This document shows, one piece after another, positions 3 through 6,885 of a stretch of DNA of 6,885 nucleotides. The stretch is taken from contig WQRL01000091.1 in the NCBI GenBank assembly GCA_009786775.1, forward strand, positions 1-6,885, written 5' to 3'. The notes under the pieces are model-generated. The model did no database searches. It worked only from the letters and a program-made list of their open reading frames with translations, and had not been told where the DNA came from. Position 1 is the stretch's first letter. Each line of letters begins with the position of its first letter. The translations under genes were made by a program, and so were the position numbers. This stretch comes from Oscillospiraceae bacterium (lineage in GTDB: Bacteria > Bacillota > Clostridia > Oscillospirales > Oscillospiraceae).

Positions 3-800
3 GACGGTCGCCAAGAGCATTGGAAACGCAACAGCTTCAAAAACCATCCCCTGACCGTCAAAACCTCTGACAGTTATAGCCAGCACAACTGCTGAAATAA
101 TTGCTCCCACATAGCTGTCAAAGAGATCTGCACCCATGCCTGCCACGTCGCCGACATTGTCGCCGACATTATCAGCTATAACAGCGGGGTTGCGGGGGTC
201 ATCTTCTGGGATTCCTGCTTCAATCTTGCCGACGAGGTCAGCACCCACATCGGCGGCTTTCGTGAAAATACCACCGCCCACGCGGCCAAACAAGGACATG
301 GAGGTTGCTCCTAGGCCGAAGCCTGTTACATATTCCACCTGCTCTTGCGACTGCGCACCGAAGATAATAAATAAAAGCCCCAGGCCGAAAATAGCAAGCC
401 CAACGACACTGAGCCCCATTACTGCACCGCCGCGAAAGGCGATCCGGAGAGCCGGGGGCATTCCGATTCTAGCAGCAGCCGCAGTTCTCACATTGGCCTG
501 TGTGGCAGTCCTCATGCCGAAGTAGCCTGCCAGCAGAGAGAAGGTGCAGCCGAACAGGAATAAAATCGCCGTGTAGAGGTTTACCGCAAAAATAATAACC
601 ACGAACATAACTAAACCGAAAATGCCTATAGTCCGGTATTCTCGGAACAGGAAGGTCATAGCCCCCCCACGTATGTACGAGGCAATTTCACGCATGCGGT
701 CATCGCCATCGTCGTTTTTGTTAATCCATCTGGCGATAAACACGGCGGTTATTAGGGAAACCGCCCCTGCTATTGTGATTGCCAAGAAAATTGTGTCCAT
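3..800 (-). CDS. hppA: Membrane-bound ion-pumping pyrophosphatase, N-terminal part (3' end outside window)
   Basis: Integral membrane pyrophosphatase that couples hydrolysis of cytoplasmic pyrophosphate to export of H+ or Na+. Only the first 266 residues are present, against roughly 650-800 for the family; the gene continues past base 1. Translation starts at ATG 800-798, preceded by a weak GGGATGG site (815-809). Hydrophobic segments occur near residues 3-25 and 55-95, and around residues 130-150. The substrate-binding signature is intact: FTKAADVGADLVGK spans about residues 179-192 (D184, D188, K192) and DNVGDNVGD spans 210-218, carrying the Asp residues that bind Mg-pyrophosphate. The stretch after it (AGMGADLFDSYVGA) is also typical. 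The residues that separate K+-dependent from K+-independent forms lie beyond the window, so the ion pumped cannot be decided. The gene is transcribed divergently from the LysR gene. The family assignment is secure. Confidence 0.96.
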   Translation of the reverse strand, partial: MDTIFLAITIAGAVSLITAVFIARWINKNDDGDDRMREIASYIRGGAMTFLFREYRTIGIFGLVMFVVIIFAVNLYTAILFLFGCTFSLLAGYFGMRTATQANVRTAAAARIGMPPALRIAFRGGAVMGLSVVGLAIFGLGLLFIIFGAQSQEQVEYVTGFGLGATSMSLFGRVGGGIFTKAADVGADLVGKIEAGIPEDDPRNPAVIADNVGDNVGDVAGMGADLFDSYVGAIISAVVLAITVRGFDGQGMVFEAVAFPMLLATV

Positions 801-843
801 TAAAACTACCATCCCTGTTAACTTAAAAATTGTCACAGGCTTG

Positions 844-872
844 ATTATAGCTAATTTGTAAAGAAATATCAA
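844..872 (-). promoter_or_regulatory. Predicted promoter of hppA
   Basis: Read on the minus strand, a TTGATA -35 box (872-867) is followed after 17 bases by a perfect TATAAT -10 box (849-844). Transcription would begin near 838, giving a leader of about 38 bases before the hppA start at 800. The call rests on sequence match and position only. Confidence 0.7.
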
Positions 873-961: not shown

Positions 962-1876
962 ATGGAAATTAAACAATTGGAAATATTTACCAGTGTTGCG
1001 CGTAAGCTGAGCTTTTCAAAGGCGGCGGACGAACTGTATATATCCCAGCCCACAGTTAGTGCTCAAATTAATTCCCTTGAGAAGTCCCTGGGTGCTCAAC
1101 TTCTAATCCGCAATACCAAAGGGGTTTCCCTGACGAAAACCGGTGAGGAATTTCTCAGCTATGCAAAGAAAATCCTTAGCTTGCGCGATCAGGCTAAAAG
1201 CTGTACAGGCAGCAAGGGGAGAGGTGCAACCGGTGCAATAGACATAATAGCCTCGACACTCCCGGCCCAACACTTGCTGCCGGAGATAATCGCGTCATTT
1301 CAGAAGGAGTGGCCGAACATAATATTCCGTGTAGAGCAGAGCGACAGCGGCAAAGTCGTCGCGGAAATGAATAGCTTTAAGTATGACTTCGGCATGATTG
1401 GCACAAAGCCTGATGGCGAGAGGGGCGATAGATTTGTATGCCACACGATTTTTAATGACGAACTTGTGCTGGTGCTGCCCAAGGGCTTCGCGGCTGAAGA
1501 CTTGGATAACTTCTCGCAGGGGAAACTTGCCCAGCTTATAACCAAAACGCCCTTTTTGATGCGTGAAAGCGGTTCCGGGACAAGGACGGAGATAGGGGAT
1601 ATTCTTGACAAAAGCGGCGTGGACATTCAAAAGCTGCATGTCCCAGCTTATTTTCCCGATGCCCACAGCATTCTGGCGGCGGTGTCCAAAGGCGTGGGCA
1701 TATCCCTTGTTTCAAAAATAGCTGCGGACATGTATGTAAAAGCGGGCTTAGTAAAGCAGATAGAGATGACGGGTGGACTGTTCACGCGCCAAATCTATCT
1801 GATTTATAACAAAGAGCTATGGCTCTCACCCATGCAAAGAGCGTTTGTGGATTATGTGCGCGGCGGAGTGCAGTGA
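962..1876 (+). CDS. LysR-type transcriptional regulator, possibly linked to selenium metabolism
   Basis: A 304-residue DNA-binding regulator of normal LysR length. The N-terminal winged helix-turn-helix covers about residues 1-60, with the recognition region around SKAADELYISQPTVSAQI (19-36) and the LysR-typical LEKSLGAQLLIR (39-50). The effector-binding domain spans about residues 90-300 and resembles the CysB/CysL-like periplasmic-binding-protein fold. The start is ATG 962, with GGAGAAG (948-954) seven bases upstream. The gene is divergent from hppA and convergent with selD, ending 16 bases from the selD stop. Clostridial genomes contain a LysR subfamily that travels with selenium genes, and the selD neighbour makes membership likely; this is inference from context, not from a diagnostic residue. 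Its effector and targets are unknown, and autoregulation or control of hppA from the shared intergenic region is equally possible. Confidence 0.93.
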   Translation: MEIKQLEIFTSVARKLSFSKAADELYISQPTVSAQINSLEKSLGAQLLIRNTKGVSLTKTGEEFLSYAKKILSLRDQAKSCTGSKGRGATGAIDIIASTLPAQHLLPEIIASFQKEWPNIIFRVEQSDSGKVVAEMNSFKYDFGMIGTKPDGERGDRFVCHTIFNDELVLVLPKGFAAEDLDNFSQGKLAQLITKTPFLMRESGSGTRTEIGDILDKSGVDIQKLHVPAYFPDAHSILAAVSKGVGISLVSKIAADMYVKAGLVKQIEMTGGLFTRQIYLIYNKELWLSPMQRAFVDYVRGGVQ

Positions 1877-1892: not shown

Positions 1893-2918
1893 CTACAGGA
1901 CGATTATGTTTTTTTCTGCCCTTGGTATAACCTCCCCTGCAACGCAGCAGGCGGGGTCTTGGTCTTTAAGCGCCTCGAGCAGGGCCTCGGCATCGTCAGG
2001 GTGGACACTTATTAGAAGGCCGCCGGAGGTTTGCGGGTCGAGAAGTATTTCCTCCATGGGCATTGAAACTCCGCAAAATTCAACTAGTTCCTGCACATAA
2101 TTGCGGTTTTTCGTGCCGCCGCCTGTGGTTAAAAATTCTCCTGCTAAGCGCTCTGCTTCCTTTATGTACAAAATATTAGATGAATGCACGCAGATGGAAT
2201 AATCCGGGCAGACCATCTCGTTTAGGTGCCCTAGAAAACCGAAGCCTGTAACATCAGTGCAACTGTGGATGCGGAAGCCTCTGGCAATCTCAAAGGCGTA
2301 TTTGTTCAGGCGCTCCATGCTCCTGACAGCCTGTAAGTACCCTTCCTCCGATGCCAGGCCTGATTTGTATGAAGCCGTAATCATCCCAACCCCCAGCGGC
2401 TTTGTAAGTATTATGCGGTCGCCTACTTGGCATCTGTTGTTATACATTATCTTCCCGGGGTGGACGGTGCCTGTCACCGAGAGGCCGTACTTGGGCTCTT
2501 TGTCATTGATTGAATGCCCGCCGCAGAGCGTACCGCCTGCTTCCAAAACCTTCTCAGCGCCACCGCGCAGAATTTCACCGAGGATGGCAGGATCCTCATC
2601 TTCAGGAAAGCATACTATGTTCAGGGCTGTTTTCACCTCGCCGCCCATGGCGTAGATATCGCTGAGGGAATTGGCTGCGGCGATTTTTCCAAAAAGATAA
2701 GGGTCGTCTACCATAGGTGGGAAAAAGTCCAGCGTGTTTACAATAGCCAGGTCGTCAGATAGCTTGTAGACTGACCCATCATCAGAGGTGTCAAATCCCA
2801 CAAGCAAGTCTGGGTCTTTAGGCTTAGGTATATGCGAAATAACATCTTGCAGCATTCCATGCGGCAATTTTGAGATTCAGCCGCCGCAGGCTGTAAATTT
2901 GTTTAGTTTCTTAATCAT
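1893..2918 (-). CDS. selD: Selenide, water dikinase (selenophosphate synthetase), a selenoprotein with in-frame TGA
   Basis: Makes selenophosphate from selenide and ATP, the selenium donor for selenocysteine tRNA and selenouridine. The full product is 341 residues if the TGA at 2879-2877 is read as selenocysteine 14. The start is ATG 2918-2916, with GGAG 11 bases upstream; an in-frame GTG at 2939-2937 is a weaker alternative. The N-terminus reads TACGG-Sec-ISKLP, which places Sec14 and Lys17 in the same relation as catalytic Cys17 and Lys20 of E. coli SelD. Downstream motifs are intact: metal-binding VGFDTSDDG (about 40-48), TLDFF with D64, AAANSLSDIYAMGG with D87, GGHSI, TDVTGFGFLGHL and LDPQTSGGLL. 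A gene caller that stops at TGA would begin at a TTG (2867) and lose the active site. The gene is convergent with the LysR gene and has its own promoter. The SelD assignment is secure and the Sec reading is very likely. Confidence 0.95.
2847..2867 (-). promoter_or_regulatory. Predicted bacterial SECIS hairpin in selD
   Basis: Immediately after the TGA, the selD mRNA can fold TTGC (2867-2864), an unpaired C, GCAT (2862-2859), loop GGA (2858-2856), ATGC (2855-2852), an unpaired T and GCAA (2850-2847). That gives eight base pairs, one mismatch and a G-containing apical loop 19-20 bases after the UGA. This is the distance range in which bacterial SelB-binding SECIS loops are found. The hairpin is entirely inside the coding sequence, as usual in bacteria. 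Confidence 0.75.
2877..2879 (-). other. Selenocysteine codon (TGA) of selD
   Basis: This in-frame TGA falls exactly at the catalytic Cys/Sec position of SelD. The reading frame is open and family-like on both sides, and Lys17 follows three residues later. A frameshift or nonsense mutation is unlikely because homology continues in the same frame and a SECIS-like hairpin follows. Confidence 0.9.
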
Positions 2919-3074: not shown

Positions 3075-3103
3075 TTGACAACATCAAAGACATAGCGTAT
3101 ACT
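3075..3103 (+). promoter_or_regulatory. Predicted promoter of the ECF-transporter operon and its leader RNA
   Basis: A perfect TTGACA -35 box (3075-3080) and a TATACT -10 box (3098-3103) are separated by the optimal 17 bases. Transcription would start near 3110, leaving about 200 bases of untranslated leader before the first gene at 3313. Such a strong core promoter plus a long structured leader suggests control after initiation. No other candidate this good was seen closer to the gene. Confidence 0.8.
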
Positions 3104-3109
3104 TTTTCC

Positions 3110-3312
3110 GATGAATTAAATACAATTATCGGAAGTGATATGTGGACGAGCAGACCTCTTTCGCGGTGGGGCACATAGGCCGGAAAGGCCTGTGCTGTTT
3201 TGCTTTGCATGACCCCTGTCACATTTGTTTTGAGCAGAACCTATCCGCTCCTTGCCGTGACGACGGGAAGCGGGTATTTTGTTTGGAATTTTAAGAAAGT
3301 AGGAGAAACCGT
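3110..3312 (+). ncRNA. Structured 5' leader, candidate riboswitch (class not identified)
   Basis: The leader contains several pairing elements. GGGG (3168-3171) can pair with CCCC (3213-3216), enclosing a GC-rich hairpin at 3171-3195. A second hairpin covers 3251-3270: CTT/AAG, a G-G mismatch, CCGT/ACGG and a GACG loop, extended by CCG 3245-3247 with CGG 3271-3273 across a bulge. TATGTG (3139-3144) is complementary to CACATA (3172-3177), which competes with the first hairpin. CTCCT (3248-3252) is complementary to the ribosome binding site AGGAG (3301-3305), which competes with the second. GAGCAGACCT (3148-3157) recurs as GAGCAGAACCT (3232-3242). Alternating structures like these are what a riboswitch expression platform needs. 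The signature boxes of TPP and cobalamin riboswitches are absent. A Moco RNA is my leading guess from gene context, with low confidence. Confidence 0.5.
3171..3204 (+). terminator. Terminator-like hairpin inside the leader (possible attenuator)
   Basis: GCAC (3171-3174), a two-base bulge and AGGCC (3177-3181) pair with GGCCT (3187-3191) and GTGC (3192-3195) around a GGAAA loop. The stem is followed by TGTTTTGCTTT, which is T-rich but interrupted. It could end transcription about 95 bases after the predicted start, or simply be a structural arm of the leader. Confidence 0.4.
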
Positions 3313-3894
3313 ATGGTTAGAAAATTTATAAACGGATTTACAATCTACCATCTGATGATAATAACTCTGCTGGCAGCTCTTGGCATCGCGGTGAAAATAC
3401 CGTTACAGCCGCTTATTCACATGATATCGGGGCCTCTGCTGATGCCCGGGGGAGCGCTGGCGGGCGGTCTGTATATGATGTTTATAGTTCTGGCCGTATC
3501 CATAACGGGCAGGCCCGGCGCGGCCTTTCTTTGCGGCTTTGTACAAGCTATTTTGGTTATGATAACAGGGCTCGGTGGACACCATGGGGCCCTGACGATA
3601 TTTACATACACAATGCCTGGTATTATAGTAGACCTTATGATGCTAGTGAGCAGGCACCGCGGCTGTTGCCGCGCCTGCTGTTTCTTCGGCTGTATGCTGG
3701 CAAATGTGACAGGTACACTAATGGTAAGTTTTGCATTCTTTGCACTGCCGCTTGTCCCTATGCTCTTGAGGTTAGGCTCGGCGGCGCTGTCTGGCGCCAT
3801 AGGGGGGCTTGTGGCCTGGGAAGTTGCAAAGCATCTTGGCAAGATTATTAAAATAGGCGGCAAAAGCCCTAAATCAGCAAAAAATCAGGAGTAG
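3313..3894 (+). CDS. ECF transporter S component, YkoE/ABC_cobalt-like
   Basis: A 193-residue integral membrane protein expected to be the substrate-binding S component of an energy-coupling-factor importer. Six hydrophobic segments can be seen, near residues 12-33, 46-66, 68-90, 96-113, 118-142 and 146-168. A basic, hydrophilic tail of about 25 residues ends in KSPKSAKNQE. The ITGRPGAAFLCGFVQAIL stretch (about 64-81) resembles the corresponding RKPGAAL region of Bacillus YkoE, a thiamine-precursor S component; the ligand cannot be inferred from this alone. A loop near 116-128 is cysteine-rich (RGCCRACCFFGC). The start is ATG 3313, with AGGAG (3301-3305) seven bases upstream. It is the first gene of the operon, and an ECF-type ATPase lies four genes later, supporting the call. 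The usual EcfT protein is not seen and may lie beyond the right edge. Confidence 0.8.
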   Translation: MVRKFINGFTIYHLMIITLLAALGIAVKIPLQPLIHMISGPLLMPGGALAGGLYMMFIVLAVSITGRPGAAFLCGFVQAILVMITGLGGHHGALTIFTYTMPGIIVDLMMLVSRHRGCCRACCFFGCMLANVTGTLMVSFAFFALPLVPMLLRLGSAALSGAIGGLVAWEVAKHLGKIIKIGGKSPKSAKNQE

Positions 3895-3897
3895 GCC

Positions 3898-5004
3898 ATG
3901 AAGCGAAGCATAATTAATATAATTACAATACTGACCTTACTGACTTTGGCTCTGGCTGTAGCGGCGTGTGACGGCGGTGCGGCTCCGAGCGCAGAAAACA
4001 CCCCTGACGCGGCTGCAACGAAAGCCCATGGAAGCTACAGGGCTCTGGATTATCCGAGCGAAATAGGTGTCGTGGATGCTTCCGGAACCCGCAGGCTAGG
4101 GGCTGGGGAGCTTGACGGCAGGGCTGTTTCAGATTTGTTGGAAGCACAACACGATGTTATGGTGTTCGGCCGTGGAGGCTGGCAGCTGCGGGATACAGAT
4201 TTCTCAGAGGCCTCAATCTCCATATACGGAGGCAGGATTGACTACATTGCGGGCGATGGCACAGTCCATGCCAACATAGTGGGCATTATGGCAGATGCTC
4301 CCGAGCGTTCAATATCGCAGCTACACCACGATGTGCGTGAAGCACTGAGCGGCGGGGAGAGAGTCTTGGCACTGTTTCTTGACGGCTGGGGTTTGGAAAA
4401 GTTTTACTACCACATGGACAGTGCGCCGTTTTTAGCAAGCCTGGATAATATTCCGGCCCTGGTGGCATATCCTCCGATTACAAATGTCGGCCTAGCCACG
4501 GTTTTGTCCGGAGTGCTGCCTAATGTACATGGCATCCACGCCAGGGCTGACAGGATGATGCGCGAGGGAGTGCAGGATATCTTTGGCTGGGCAAGGGATA
4601 ATGGGCATAGCGTCGCATACATCCAAGGCCACACAGGAATAATTCACACGAGCGTCACACCTTTGATGTCGCCTGATGTGGACGGGAAATACGGTACGGA
4701 CAATGAAATATTTGAAAATGCCAAAAGAAATCTGGATGTGGACTTCATGTTTATCCACTTTCAGGGGATTGATGACGAGGGGCACACTTATGGCCCGTAT
4801 TCCCCTGAAGTAGCCGCGAGAATGGCTCTGATTGACGGGTACATAGAGTACTTGGTAGAGAATTTCGGGCCTGCGGCAGTTATAATAACGGCAGACCACG
4901 GCATGCGTGATATAGAGGGCAATCCATTCCGCTTGGGAGATCACTTGGACATAAGCCATGAGGAAATGATAGTGCCTTACATTTTATTTCGGAGCGGGAG
5001 GTAA
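3898..5004 (+). CDS. Lipoprotein phosphoesterase of the alkaline phosphatase/nucleotide pyrophosphatase superfamily
   Basis: A 368-residue protein predicted to be lipid-anchored outside the membrane: a hydrophobic signal ends in lipobox V-A-A-C with Cys24, followed by a low-complexity linker. Residues about 45-150 form an N-terminal region I do not recognise. The catalytic domain starts at LALFLDGWG, with metal ligand D162. Thr195 in PPITNVGLATVLSG aligns with the nucleophilic Thr of NPP-type phosphodiesterases, and NVHGI follows as in that family. Further metal ligands are D292 and H296 in DDEGH, D333-H334 in TADHGM, and H354 (or H349) near the end. The domain is shorter than typical NPPs, and Arg216 occupies the place of their conserved substrate-binding Asn. 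It is probably a phosphodiesterase, pyrophosphatase or phosphatase, substrate unknown. AGGAG (3887-3891) overlaps the preceding stop region and lies six bases before the ATG. The operon context suggests it processes a ligand for the transporter. Confidence 0.85.
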   Translation: MKRSIINIITILTLLTLALAVAACDGGAAPSAENTPDAAATKAHGSYRALDYPSEIGVVDASGTRRLGAGELDGRAVSDLLEAQHDVMVFGRGGWQLRDTDFSEASISIYGGRIDYIAGDGTVHANIVGIMADAPERSISQLHHDVREALSGGERVLALFLDGWGLEKFYYHMDSAPFLASLDNIPALVAYPPITNVGLATVLSGVLPNVHGIHARADRMMREGVQDIFGWARDNGHSVAYIQGHTGIIHTSVTPLMSPDVDGKYGTDNEIFENAKRNLDVDFMFIHFQGIDDEGHTYGPYSPEVAARMALIDGYIEYLVENFGPAAVIITADHGMRDIEGNPFRLGDHLDISHEEMIVPYILFRSGR

Positions 5005-5010
5005 CAAATA

Positions 5011-5577
5011 ATGAGTGAACAAAACGGACAAACTGAGCAAAACAACCAGCCTGAGCAGACTGGCAAAAAGAAAGCAGGCAAGGGCACAATAGCCATGATT
5101 GCGGCCTTTGCAGTGCTTGTAGCGGTGGTGGCTGTAACTGCTATACTAAACCGCGAGGCAATAGAGGAGCGTATGGAGCTTCAGGAAGCCGGAGAGTTTC
5201 TGGTGACAATTGGCGATGAAACCCATAGTGTTTCACTAGGGGATTTGCTGAACCTAAGTCCAGTGGAAGTTACATCCAGCCCTAGAGGGGAGCTGCGCAC
5301 CTTTACAGGGGTGCCGCTTGTTAGAATACTCGACTTTCTGAGTATTGATTTTTCTCAGACCAGAACCATAGTGTTTACCTCCCTTGACGGCTTTGCCACT
5401 GCACTGGGGATTGAGGAAGCGGTTGATGAAACTAACACATTTATAGTGTTTGAGGAAGACGGGCAGCCGCTGGGCACCAGGGAAGAAGGCGGGCGCGGGC
5501 CTTACATGGTTGTGGTGGCCCTCGACCCCTTTCCGAATAGATGGGCGAGATATCTAATGGAAGTAACATTACAGTAG
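5011..5577 (+). CDS. Membrane-anchored protein with a cysteine-less sulfite-oxidase-like (molybdopterin-fold) domain
   Basis: A 188-residue protein. A hydrophilic, Gln/Asn/Lys-rich N-terminus (1-26) precedes one membrane segment (about 27-45), so the domain at residues 59-188 should be extracytoplasmic. That domain resembles the oxidoreductase molybdopterin-binding fold (Pfam PF00174): VSLGDLLNL, then RTFTGVPLVRILDFL, IVFTSLDGFATAL, FIVFEEDGQPLG, GGRGPYMVVVALD and a final RYLMEVTL. The protein contains no cysteine at all, so it lacks the residue that coordinates molybdenum in sulfite oxidases, and a redox role of that type is unlikely. A binding role is my inference. GGGAGG (4996-5001) lies nine bases before the ATG. 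It is a paralogue of the C-terminal half of the next gene product; the last 60 or so residues are close to 50 percent identical by eye. Confidence 0.75.
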   Translation: MSEQNGQTEQNNQPEQTGKKKAGKGTIAMIAAFAVLVAVVAVTAILNREAIEERMELQEAGEFLVTIGDETHSVSLGDLLNLSPVEVTSSPRGELRTFTGVPLVRILDFLSIDFSQTRTIVFTSLDGFATALGIEEAVDETNTFIVFEEDGQPLGTREEGGRGPYMVVVALDPFPNRWARYLMEVTLQ

Positions 5578-5587
5578 GAGGCACACA

Positions 5588-6448
5588 GTGAGAAAACATA
5601 AACTTACTAAGAGATTTATTTGCGCGGTGCTCGCAGCTATCTGCATGCTGAGCCTTACATCCCCGCTTGCTTTGGCGAGCACTGAGACCAGGGTATTTAT
5701 CGAAGGTTCTTTAATTATTCCTAGAGATGTACAGGGCAGGGTAGTAAATCCCATAATTGTTGATGGCACGACATTTCTTCCAATAAGGGCAGTGGGGGAA
5801 GCCTTCGGCAGAGAGATTGAATGGGACGGAGCGCGGCAGGCAGTAATCGTAGGGACACCGCCCGCATCCATCCCTGCGCGCGGGGCGAATATAAGAGTTT
5901 TCATTGATGGCAGGCAGCTTACAGCGAGAGATGCCCAAGGCAGGGTTGTACATCCCATTATACGTGAGGGTACTACATTTCTTCCCTTGCGCGCAATTGG
6001 CGAAGCCTTCGGCAGAGAGGTTCACTGGGATGCGAGAAACCGAAGTGTATTCGTTGGGCGGGGTACACTTACAATCAGGGCAGGCAGCAATGAACACATA
6101 GTCACGATGGCAGACATTCTGGCACTGGAGCCGCGTGCTGTAACTCAGAGGCACAGAGATGAAATTAGAAACTTTACCGGAGTGCCTTTAGCAGCAGTGT
6201 TTGCGCGTGCAGGGGTCAATACTGCGGATATGCGCACTGTGACATTTAGCTCAGAGGATGGATTCTCAGCTGTAATAACCATCTCTGAGGCTCTTGACAG
6301 AAACAATAGCTTTATAGTGATAACACAAAATGGAAATCCACTGGGTACAATTGAAACAGGTGGGCGCGGGCCATTTATGAATGTGGTTTCGCTGGACATG
6401 TTCGCAAACCGGTCTGCCCGGTATCTTAATGAGATAGTGCTGTCTTGA
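5588..6448 (+). CDS. Secreted protein: two copper-amine-oxidase-N-like repeats plus a sulfite-oxidase-like domain
   Basis: A 286-residue protein with a signal peptide (basic MRKHKLTKR, then a hydrophobic stretch ending near LALAS, about residue 31). Two repeats of the copper-amine-oxidase N-terminal type (Pfam PF07833) follow at 35-89 and 103-157, each with GRVV-PII, GTTFLP-RA-GEAFGRE and a closing V-VG. In Firmicutes this module is a common cell-surface element and does not imply amine oxidase activity. Residues 160-286 repeat the cysteine-less molybdopterin-fold domain of the preceding gene: NFTGVPLAAVF, VTFSSEDGFSAV, NSFIVITQNGNPLG, GGRGPFMNVVSLD and ARYLNEIVL. Cysteines occur only in the signal peptide. 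Translation uses GTG 5588, with a perfect AGGAGG (5576-5581) that overlaps the previous stop codon, six bases upstream. It is likely a wall-associated ligand-binding partner of the transporter; this is inference. Confidence 0.78.
   Translation: MRKHKLTKRFICAVLAAICMLSLTSPLALASTETRVFIEGSLIIPRDVQGRVVNPIIVDGTTFLPIRAVGEAFGREIEWDGARQAVIVGTPPASIPARGANIRVFIDGRQLTARDAQGRVVHPIIREGTTFLPLRAIGEAFGREVHWDARNRSVFVGRGTLTIRAGSNEHIVTMADILALEPRAVTQRHRDEIRNFTGVPLAAVFARAGVNTADMRTVTFSSEDGFSAVITISEALDRNNSFIVITQNGNPLGTIETGGRGPFMNVVSLDMFANRSARYLNEIVLS
5690..5854 (+). repeat. Copper-amine-oxidase-N repeat, copy 1
   Basis: Encodes residues 35-89 of the secreted protein. It repeats with a 204-base (68-residue) period; the 18 bases at 5798-5815 (coding EAFGRE) are identical to those at 6002-6019, pointing to an internal duplication. 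Confidence 0.85.
5894..6058 (+). repeat. Copper-amine-oxidase-N repeat, copy 2
   Basis: Encodes residues 103-157 and aligns with copy 1 without gaps. Conserved positions include RVFI-G, RD-QGRVV-PII, GTTFLP-RA and GEAFGRE, followed by W-D. Differences are spread along the length, so the duplication is not recent. Confidence 0.85.
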
Positions 6449-6885
6449 CGGCAATAGAGGTGAAAAACCTCACCGTGTCATATGGTGAGTACGATGTGCT
6501 ACAGGACTTCTCCCTCAAAGTGGAAACAGGTGAAGCAGTCCTTCTGCGGGGGCCGTCAGGCTGCGGGAAATCGACGCTGCTCCACACGATATGCGGGCTT
6601 TTGCCGGGGGTAGTTGAGGCAGAATGCTCAGGTGAGGTGCTGGTTTTTGGAAAACCTGTGAAGTCCCTCAGTGCACAGGAGCGGGCCGGAAGCCTTGGAA
6701 TAGTGTTTCAAAATCCGGACACACAGCTTTTTTGCGACACTATAGAGGATGAAATAGCCTTCGGCCTTGAAAATCTATGCGTGCCCAGAGATGAGATGGC
6801 GGCGCGTATTGATGAGATGCTAAAACTTACTAACATGGAGAATCTAAGGTTTGCCTCGCCGTCGAAGCTGTCAGGCGGGCAGAAA
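6445..6885 (+). CDS. ECF-type ABC transporter ATP-binding protein, N-terminal part (3' end outside window)
   Basis: Cytoplasmic ATPase that would power the ECF importer. The first 147 residues are visible. Walker A is GPSGCGKST (36-44, Lys42), the Q-loop is VFQNPDTQLF (87-96, Gln89), and the signature LSGGQK lies at 142-147, exactly at the window edge. QNPDTQLF is the form typical of EcfA/CbiO-like ATPases. The start is most likely TTG 6445, which overlaps the preceding TGA stop (6446-6448) by four bases. An in-frame stop at 6430-6432 rules out an earlier start, and the next candidate (GTG 6460) would remove the conserved first strand. The overlap suggests translational coupling. It may be a single EcfA or the first half of a YkoD-like double ATPase; the window does not show which. 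Confidence 0.92.
   Translation, partial: MTAIEVKNLTVSYGEYDVLQDFSLKVETGEAVLLRGPSGCGKSTLLHTICGLLPGVVEAECSGEVLVFGKPVKSLSAQERAGSLGIVFQNPDTQLFCDTIEDEIAFGLENLCVPRDEMAARIDEMLKLTNMENLRFASPSKLSGGQK

Follow-up and report, generated by a model that had tools for sequence, protein, structure and literature searches.

What does the energy-coupling factor (ECF) transporter encoded at the end of contig WQRL01000091.1 of an Oscillospiraceae bacterium take up? The window, i.e. the whole 6,885-nucleotide stretch of DNA that was analysed, closes with five tightly packed genes for an ECF substrate-capture (S) component, an NPP-type phosphodiesterase, two proteins with a sulfite oxidase (SUOX) fold, and the beginning of an EcfA ATPase. 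All of these frames and their expected domain calls are present, as the initial annotation had described, and its proposal of a cofactor-salvage operon with a molybdopterin-type ligand was strengthened, with gene conservation, the riboswitch RF01055, and a link to lost cofactor synthesis all in agreement. We predict that the operon encodes a salvage importer of finished molybdenum or tungsten cofactor (Moco/Tuco), or of a dephosphorylated form of it, and put the probability of this reading at roughly 0.7.

Conservation of the operon among relatives

A profile built from ten S components was run on 398 genomes of the phylum and matched 60 of them at E ≤ 1e-10, 47 of these at E ≤ 1e-20. Fifty loci were then compared, comprising 40 fetched places, nine earlier loci, and the window; five of the stronger S places (G435, G424, G444, G246, and G440), as well as the weaker ones, are left out of this set. 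Neighbourhoods of 8 kb around S were scored in 49 loci, with L084 checked apart. Loci cut by contig ends, including the window, count as misses, and families without a Pfam or NCBIfam scan were named by similarity or by eye. SUOX-fold proteins are encoded near S in 42/49 loci (43/50 with L084) and a MobB/FeS protein in 28/49, always on the same strand (29/50 with L084), while a RIO/APH-like kinase was found in 20 and the NPP in 17 of the 49 loci. The genes named in the initial annotation are thus conserved together, and because the set recurs in relatives, the five-gene arrangement of the window is more than a chance association.

The commonest full order, with A1, A2, and T standing for EcfA, EcfA', and EcfT, is [riboswitch]-SUOX-S-NPP-SUOX-A1-A2-T-MobB-kinase, and L084 has the shorter form S-SUOX-A1-A2-T-MobB. 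Within the genus of the window, L016 encodes S, SUOX, A1, A2, T, and MobB/FeS. L014 starts with S, NPP, two SUOX proteins, A1, a 681-aa SUOX protein, and T, and continues with MobB/FeS, the RIO/APH-like kinase, and a methyltransferase, A2 not being called as an intact frame. EcfA' and EcfT fall past the contig end in the window and follow A1 in many relatives, e.g. L016 (T by eye). The Pelotomaculum loci (L011-L013) lack MobB and contain S, A1, A2, and T-like genes, and two of them (L012 and L013) encode several SUOX proteins.

Riboswitches and the loss of cofactor synthesis

Scanning all 50 S loci against Rfam at gathering scores returned 21 matches to RF01055, the molybdenum/tungsten-cofactor riboswitch, in 19 loci, and no other metabolite riboswitch was reported in any of the 50. 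According to a script rule, RF01055 heads a gene run that reaches S in 15/50 loci, in some of which called frames overlap the RNA. In L084, about 70 nt separate it from the downstream S gene, judged by coordinates, and in L075 it is placed 121 nt upstream of the SUOX gene in front of S. Two copies are present in L067, one heading the S operon and the other TupABC. In L069 the riboswitch has TupABC on one side and a sister SUOX operon on the other, and in L079 it precedes another gene. The matches are 115-129 nt long in 20 of the 21 cases and 137 nt in L090. On a rough alignment, these lengths would be consistent with the variant lacking stem P3, which Regulski et al. linked to the tungsten cofactor in the passages available of their paper (PMC2408646).

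The presence of cofactor synthesis genes was scored in 80 genomes, 48 with the S component (S+) and 32 without it (S-). MoaC and MoeA are both absent in 18 of the 48 S+ genomes, and MoaA is absent in the same 18, which are spread over 10 family labels and include two single-contig assemblies (G193 and G408) as well as the incomplete genome of the window. All 18 encode a PF00384 oxidoreductase and/or the tungsten enzyme AFOR (AOR), bearing out the suggested association with loss of Moco synthesis in organisms with Mo/W-pterin enzymes. Among the S- genomes, 16 lack MoaC and MoeA, with AFOR in none and PF00384 in one (G003). The S+ non-synthesisers are represented by 15 fetched loci, in which RF01055 precedes the S operon in 11 (L075 and L084 counted) and MobB/FeS is encoded in 12. 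A Moco riboswitch retained in genomes without Moco-making genes is best explained by uptake. Genus g138 holds both situations, with MoaC and no S in G154, and S and no MoaC in G193.

The MoaC-negative genome G323, which has MoaA and MoeA, was counted among the synthesisers. MoaE, tried as a marker of synthesis, was uninformative, being present in only two of six synthesiser controls. Four genomes of anaerobes (G012, G113, G150, and G390) contain MoaA, MoaC, and MoeA without a MoaE match and therefore likely use another molybdopterin synthase.

Across the 398 genomes, AFOR is encoded in 228 and MoaC in 263. At E ≤ 1e-20, S was found in 17/35 AOR+MoaC- versus 26/193 AOR+MoaC+ genomes (Fisher p 1.0e-5), in 1/70 AOR-MoaC+ genomes, and in 3/100 AOR-MoaC- genomes, and these last three (G344, G424, and G444) have PF00384 matches. 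Likewise, AFOR occurs in 43 of the 47 S+ genomes and in 185 of the 351 others (Fisher p 7.7e-8). As the genomes are related to each other, both p values serve only as a guide.

These gene distributions also bear on the possibility that the transporter imports molybdate or tungstate ions instead of the cofactor. Metal-ion transporters are likewise placed under the Moco riboswitch in passages of PMC2408646, as seen here for TupABC in L067. The tungstate permease TupB is missing at E < 1e-60 from all 18 non-synthesisers (best match 8.5e-15, with no separate search for ModB or WtpB), and TupA (3/49 loci) or ModE (4/49) is encoded near S in a few cases. Yet an imported ion would be of no use to the 18 genomes that gave no match to MoaA, MoaC, or MoeA, and TupB is already present in 22 of the 26 other S+ genomes. 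Furthermore, the S model is nearest to a vitamin S component, and the gene set holds a phosphodiesterase, a kinase, and pterin-fold proteins. Ion import was rejected because it would not help genomes without the three synthesis proteins, and we regard it as improbable.

The encoded proteins and a possible route of uptake

The coordinates of the operon and the other features of the window are given in Table 1. The first four genes are separated by gaps of 3, 6, and 10 bp, and SUOX-2 and EcfA overlap by 4 bp. The EcfA frame is partial because the contig stops at base 6885; the genome consists of 345 contigs and is 69% complete. The 147-residue EcfA fragment was recognised as an ECF ATPase by PF00005 (67.6 bits) and TIGR04520 (120.5 bits, against a curated whole-protein cut-off of 315).

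Table 1. Positions and assignments of features in the window
Feature	Position	Strand	Assignment and remarks
Frame end	3-872	-	Resembles membrane pyrophosphatase (by eye)
LysR regulator	962-1876	+	Selenium-metabolism family NF040786, 303.6 bits (cut-off 250)
selD	1893-2912	-	TIGR00476, 364.2 bits; in-frame TGA within motif ACGG-TGA-ISK
Promoter-like site	3075..3103	+	TTGACA-17-TATACT before the operon; consensus scan, 11/12
Leader	3124..3312	+	Partly conserved in two same-genus relatives; without Rfam match
ECF S component	3313..3894	+	PF09819, YkoE-like; substrate capture
NPP/alkaline-phosphatase-superfamily phosphodiesterase	3898..5004	+	PF01663; lipobox by eye
SUOX-1	5011..5577	+	N-terminal membrane helix (residues 24-59), SUOX-fold domain (60-188)
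SUOX-2	5588..6448	+	Signal peptide (by eye), Cu_amine_oxidN1 stretches, SUOX-type domain (residues 195-285)
EcfA ATPase, first 147 residues	6445..6885	+	PF00005, TIGR04520; contig end cuts gene and operon

The two SUOX proteins were expected to be extracytoplasmic and to share a molybdopterin-fold domain, and the shared domain is borne out by PF00174 in SUOX-2 (32.3 bits, besides 100.3 bits for PF07833 in two stretches) and by the fold model of SUOX-1. The PF00174 match of SUOX-1 (22.1 bits) stays below the 24-bit cut-off, and its model clearly matches the SUOX fold, with PruR on top in Foldseek, and PruR and sulfite oxidase tied in VIA-align. Unlike sulfite oxidase and MsrP (YedY), SUOX-1 contains no cysteine and is therefore not an enzyme of this type. 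The last 130 residues of SUOX-2 are likewise free of cysteine, so that neither protein offers the Mo-ligating cysteine of SUOX molybdenum enzymes. A SUOX fold without this cysteine and located outside the membrane is shared with PruR (7kom, 7rkb), as described in passages of PMC13259868; PruR acts with DcpA in cyclic di-GMP signalling, whereas SUOX-1 is encoded with an importer. Residue W178 of SUOX-1 is invariant in 37 close relatives and, by aligned ranges only and not by a residue-by-residue alignment, lies near the pterin-binding Trp160 of Agrobacterium tumefaciens PruR.

This resemblance could mean that a different pterin is the ligand and that its uptake serves signalling or recycling, candidates being, for instance, a compound like monapterin or a product of Moco breakdown. 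PruR binds small pterins and is thought, in the sections available of PMC13259868, to be unable to hold Moco. On the other hand, the Moco riboswitch, MobB, and the occurrence in Mo/W-enzyme genomes without synthesis genes speak for the cofactor as the ligand, and we consider a different pterin unlikely. Alternatively, the ECF module might move cofactor outwards and load extracytoplasmic SUOX-fold redox proteins. Flavin traffic by an ECF transporter is reported for Listeria in a part of PMC9973259, FMN_bind adjoins a SUOX domain in L018, and ApbE-like and NusG-II-like genes (by eye) lie near a few loci (L051, L052, and L058). In genomes that lack the synthesis genes there would be no cofactor to export, however, and the SUOX domains of the window have no cysteine to hold a metal, making export very unlikely.

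The S component has a 54-bit match to PF09819, and its model shows the S fold of ECF transporters, closest to the vitamin S component YkoE (PDB 5edl) of the group I transporter YkoEDC. Identity to YkoE is 18%, with no sequence-level match by single protein or profile. Unlike YkoEDC, the present family has separate A1 and A2 genes, SUOX proteins, MobB, and a kinase, and it is associated with the Moco riboswitch instead of that for thiamine pyrophosphate (TPP). A homologue of S with 49% identity, P0106, is named from Zhenpiania hominis and represents 53 contigs. Uptake of thiamine, hydroxymethylpyrimidine, or thiamine phosphate, an alternative of the initial annotation that PF09819, the YkoE fold, and the label thiamin/hydroxymethylpyrimidine permease on some public S homologues might favour, gained no support and was rejected as hardly credible, as the TPP riboswitch is missing from all 50 loci, no thiamine gene families were noticed in the conserved neighbourhood, and YkoE itself is not matched in sequence.

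Returning to Moco/Tuco salvage, the NPP (PF01663, 66.5 bits) carries seven residues (D162, T195, D292, H296, D333, H334, and H349) that are invariant in 17/17 family members and that presumably have the metal and nucleophile roles known from the NPP family. It shares domain and site residues with the NPP/alkaline phosphatase superfamily and differs in being a lipoprotein tied to a transporter operon. In the relatives, the site residues of the kinase are invariant as well. MobB/FeS has a PF03205 match of 66.6 bits and P-loop residues invariant in 28/28 proteins, like the PRK14494-type GTPases; it remains below the TIGR00176 cut-off (63.1 versus 76.2 bits), has an FeS domain, and adjoins the transporter.

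Taken together, the gene set is in keeping with the way vitamins are commonly salvaged, where a compound is cleaved outside the cell, bound, imported, and rephosphorylated. The NPP-type lipoprotein would cleave a dinucleotide or phosphate outside the cell. This part of the initial annotation agrees with the invariant site residues and cannot be general, as the NPP occurs in 17/49 loci. The anchored and exported SUOX-fold proteins may then bind the pterin, not as an enzyme cofactor, and hand it on to S for import with EcfA, EcfA', and EcfT. In the relatives, the RIO/APH-like kinase would restore the phosphate, and MobB/FeS might help to ready the cofactor for enzymes. Because MoeA is missing besides MoaA and MoaC, the compound entering non-synthesisers should already be metal-loaded. 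A more specific version, which we hold tentatively and at slightly less than even odds, is that this is the first dedicated importer of the intact metal-loaded cofactor, that the kinase is a new one acting after import, and that the system sustains natural Moco/Tuco auxotrophs which have lost both cofactor synthesis and the tungstate transporter and live on cofactor released by their neighbours.

Several observations weigh against Moco/Tuco salvage. PruR, which SUOX-1 resembles, is held in the sections available of PMC13259868 to be too small for Moco, and among 45 SUOX members, 23 contain one or more cysteines within their last 130 residues, at unchecked positions. NPP and kinase are each encoded in under half of the loci. 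RF01055 is absent from the leader of the window and from those of three relatives in the same genus, and it is also absent from the Pelotomaculum loci. Across the phylum, 14 of the 35 AOR+MoaC- genomes lack S at E ≤ 1e-10, and four have weak matches only. Assembly gaps are likely among these 14, as eight are less than 90% complete and four (G202, G251, G368, and G413) have MoaC-bearing congeners; another cofactor route may exist in G118, G171, and G331, which are at least 97% complete and encode AFOR without MoaC or S. Moreover, 26 of the 47 S+ genomes have both AOR and MoaC, so that salvage is often not needed. In the genus of the window, S occurs alongside MoaC and MoeA in G012, G015, G016, and G017. 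The genus thus probably makes its own cofactor, and the importer would be a supplement there.

Moco is usually regarded as too unstable for trade between free-living cells. With a dedicated importer, cross-feeding of the cofactor would become open to direct test, the ECF vitamin transporters would gain a further class of substrate, and SUOX-fold proteins currently labelled as molybdopterin-dependent oxidoreductases could be given candidate functions. If true, it would also explain how "orphan" Mo/W enzymes obtain their cofactor. Passages of a 2018 study (PMC6147048) list about 300 (several hundred) orphan molybdoprotein organisms, whose Moco pathway is not complete despite their Mo enzymes and which mostly lack Mo transporters; proposed synthesis genes yet to be found, or Mo-independent forms, are the explanations put forward there. 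The non-synthesisers described here have Mo/W enzymes without Moco synthesis in common with these organisms, and an importer is proposed instead. Searches of open-licence PMC texts, which leave out most subscription papers and all preprints, turned up no account of an ECF transporter that imports Moco or Tuco. A "molybdopterin import cluster" is named in one phrase of a Desulfitobacterium genome paper (PMC4511579, seen in part), whose genes were not compared with the present cluster, and a passing phrase in PMC12282271, likewise seen in part, suggests a role of some type 11 secretion system (T11SS) outer-membrane proteins in molybdopterin uptake.

Leader of the window and neighbouring genes

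Under the initial annotation, a leader belonging to a riboswitch for an unrelated ligand would have spoken against the proposal. With RF01055 in 19/50 loci and no other metabolite riboswitch, the family gives no sign of this, and no Rfam family is matched above gathering by the window's own leader. When matches up to E = 5 were admitted, the window gave just two, both below threshold, at chance level, and outside the leader. A diverged Moco riboswitch was rejected, as no Rfam match up to E = 5 was seen for the leaders in the window, L002, L003, and L004, and the fold z of -1.57 for the window leader is not significant. This leader aligns with that of L014 (blastn, 68% over 148 nt, E 2.8e-7) and has short blastn matches to L015 and none of note to L016. 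The leader stretch TGGACGAGCAGA is identical in three same-genus relatives. As the window has a promoter-like site and a part of the leader in common with two relatives of its genus, another regulator is possible, perhaps this RNA itself. The promoter-like site itself is weak evidence, since two such sites were seen in the region and 0.8 are expected by chance.

Upstream of the importer operon, the LysR regulator gene is divergent from selD. The selD frame reads through its in-frame TGA, so its product is probably a selenoprotein. As an operon neighbour, selD was rejected because it is absent beside the operon in L014 and L016.

Further genes were seen near S in other loci. TrmO-like genes occur in L011 (7536-8417), L012, L053, and L055, the one in L011 having a weak match to FmdE (PF02663, E 0.0047, below cut-off). 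In L013 (8841-9789), L053, L054, and L055, a MotA-like gene and a small partner (by eye) directly precede S. Finally, ApbE-like, NusG-II-like, and Gx-type genes (by eye) are found in L051, L052, L058, and L069 and perhaps indicate an extracytoplasmic redox link.

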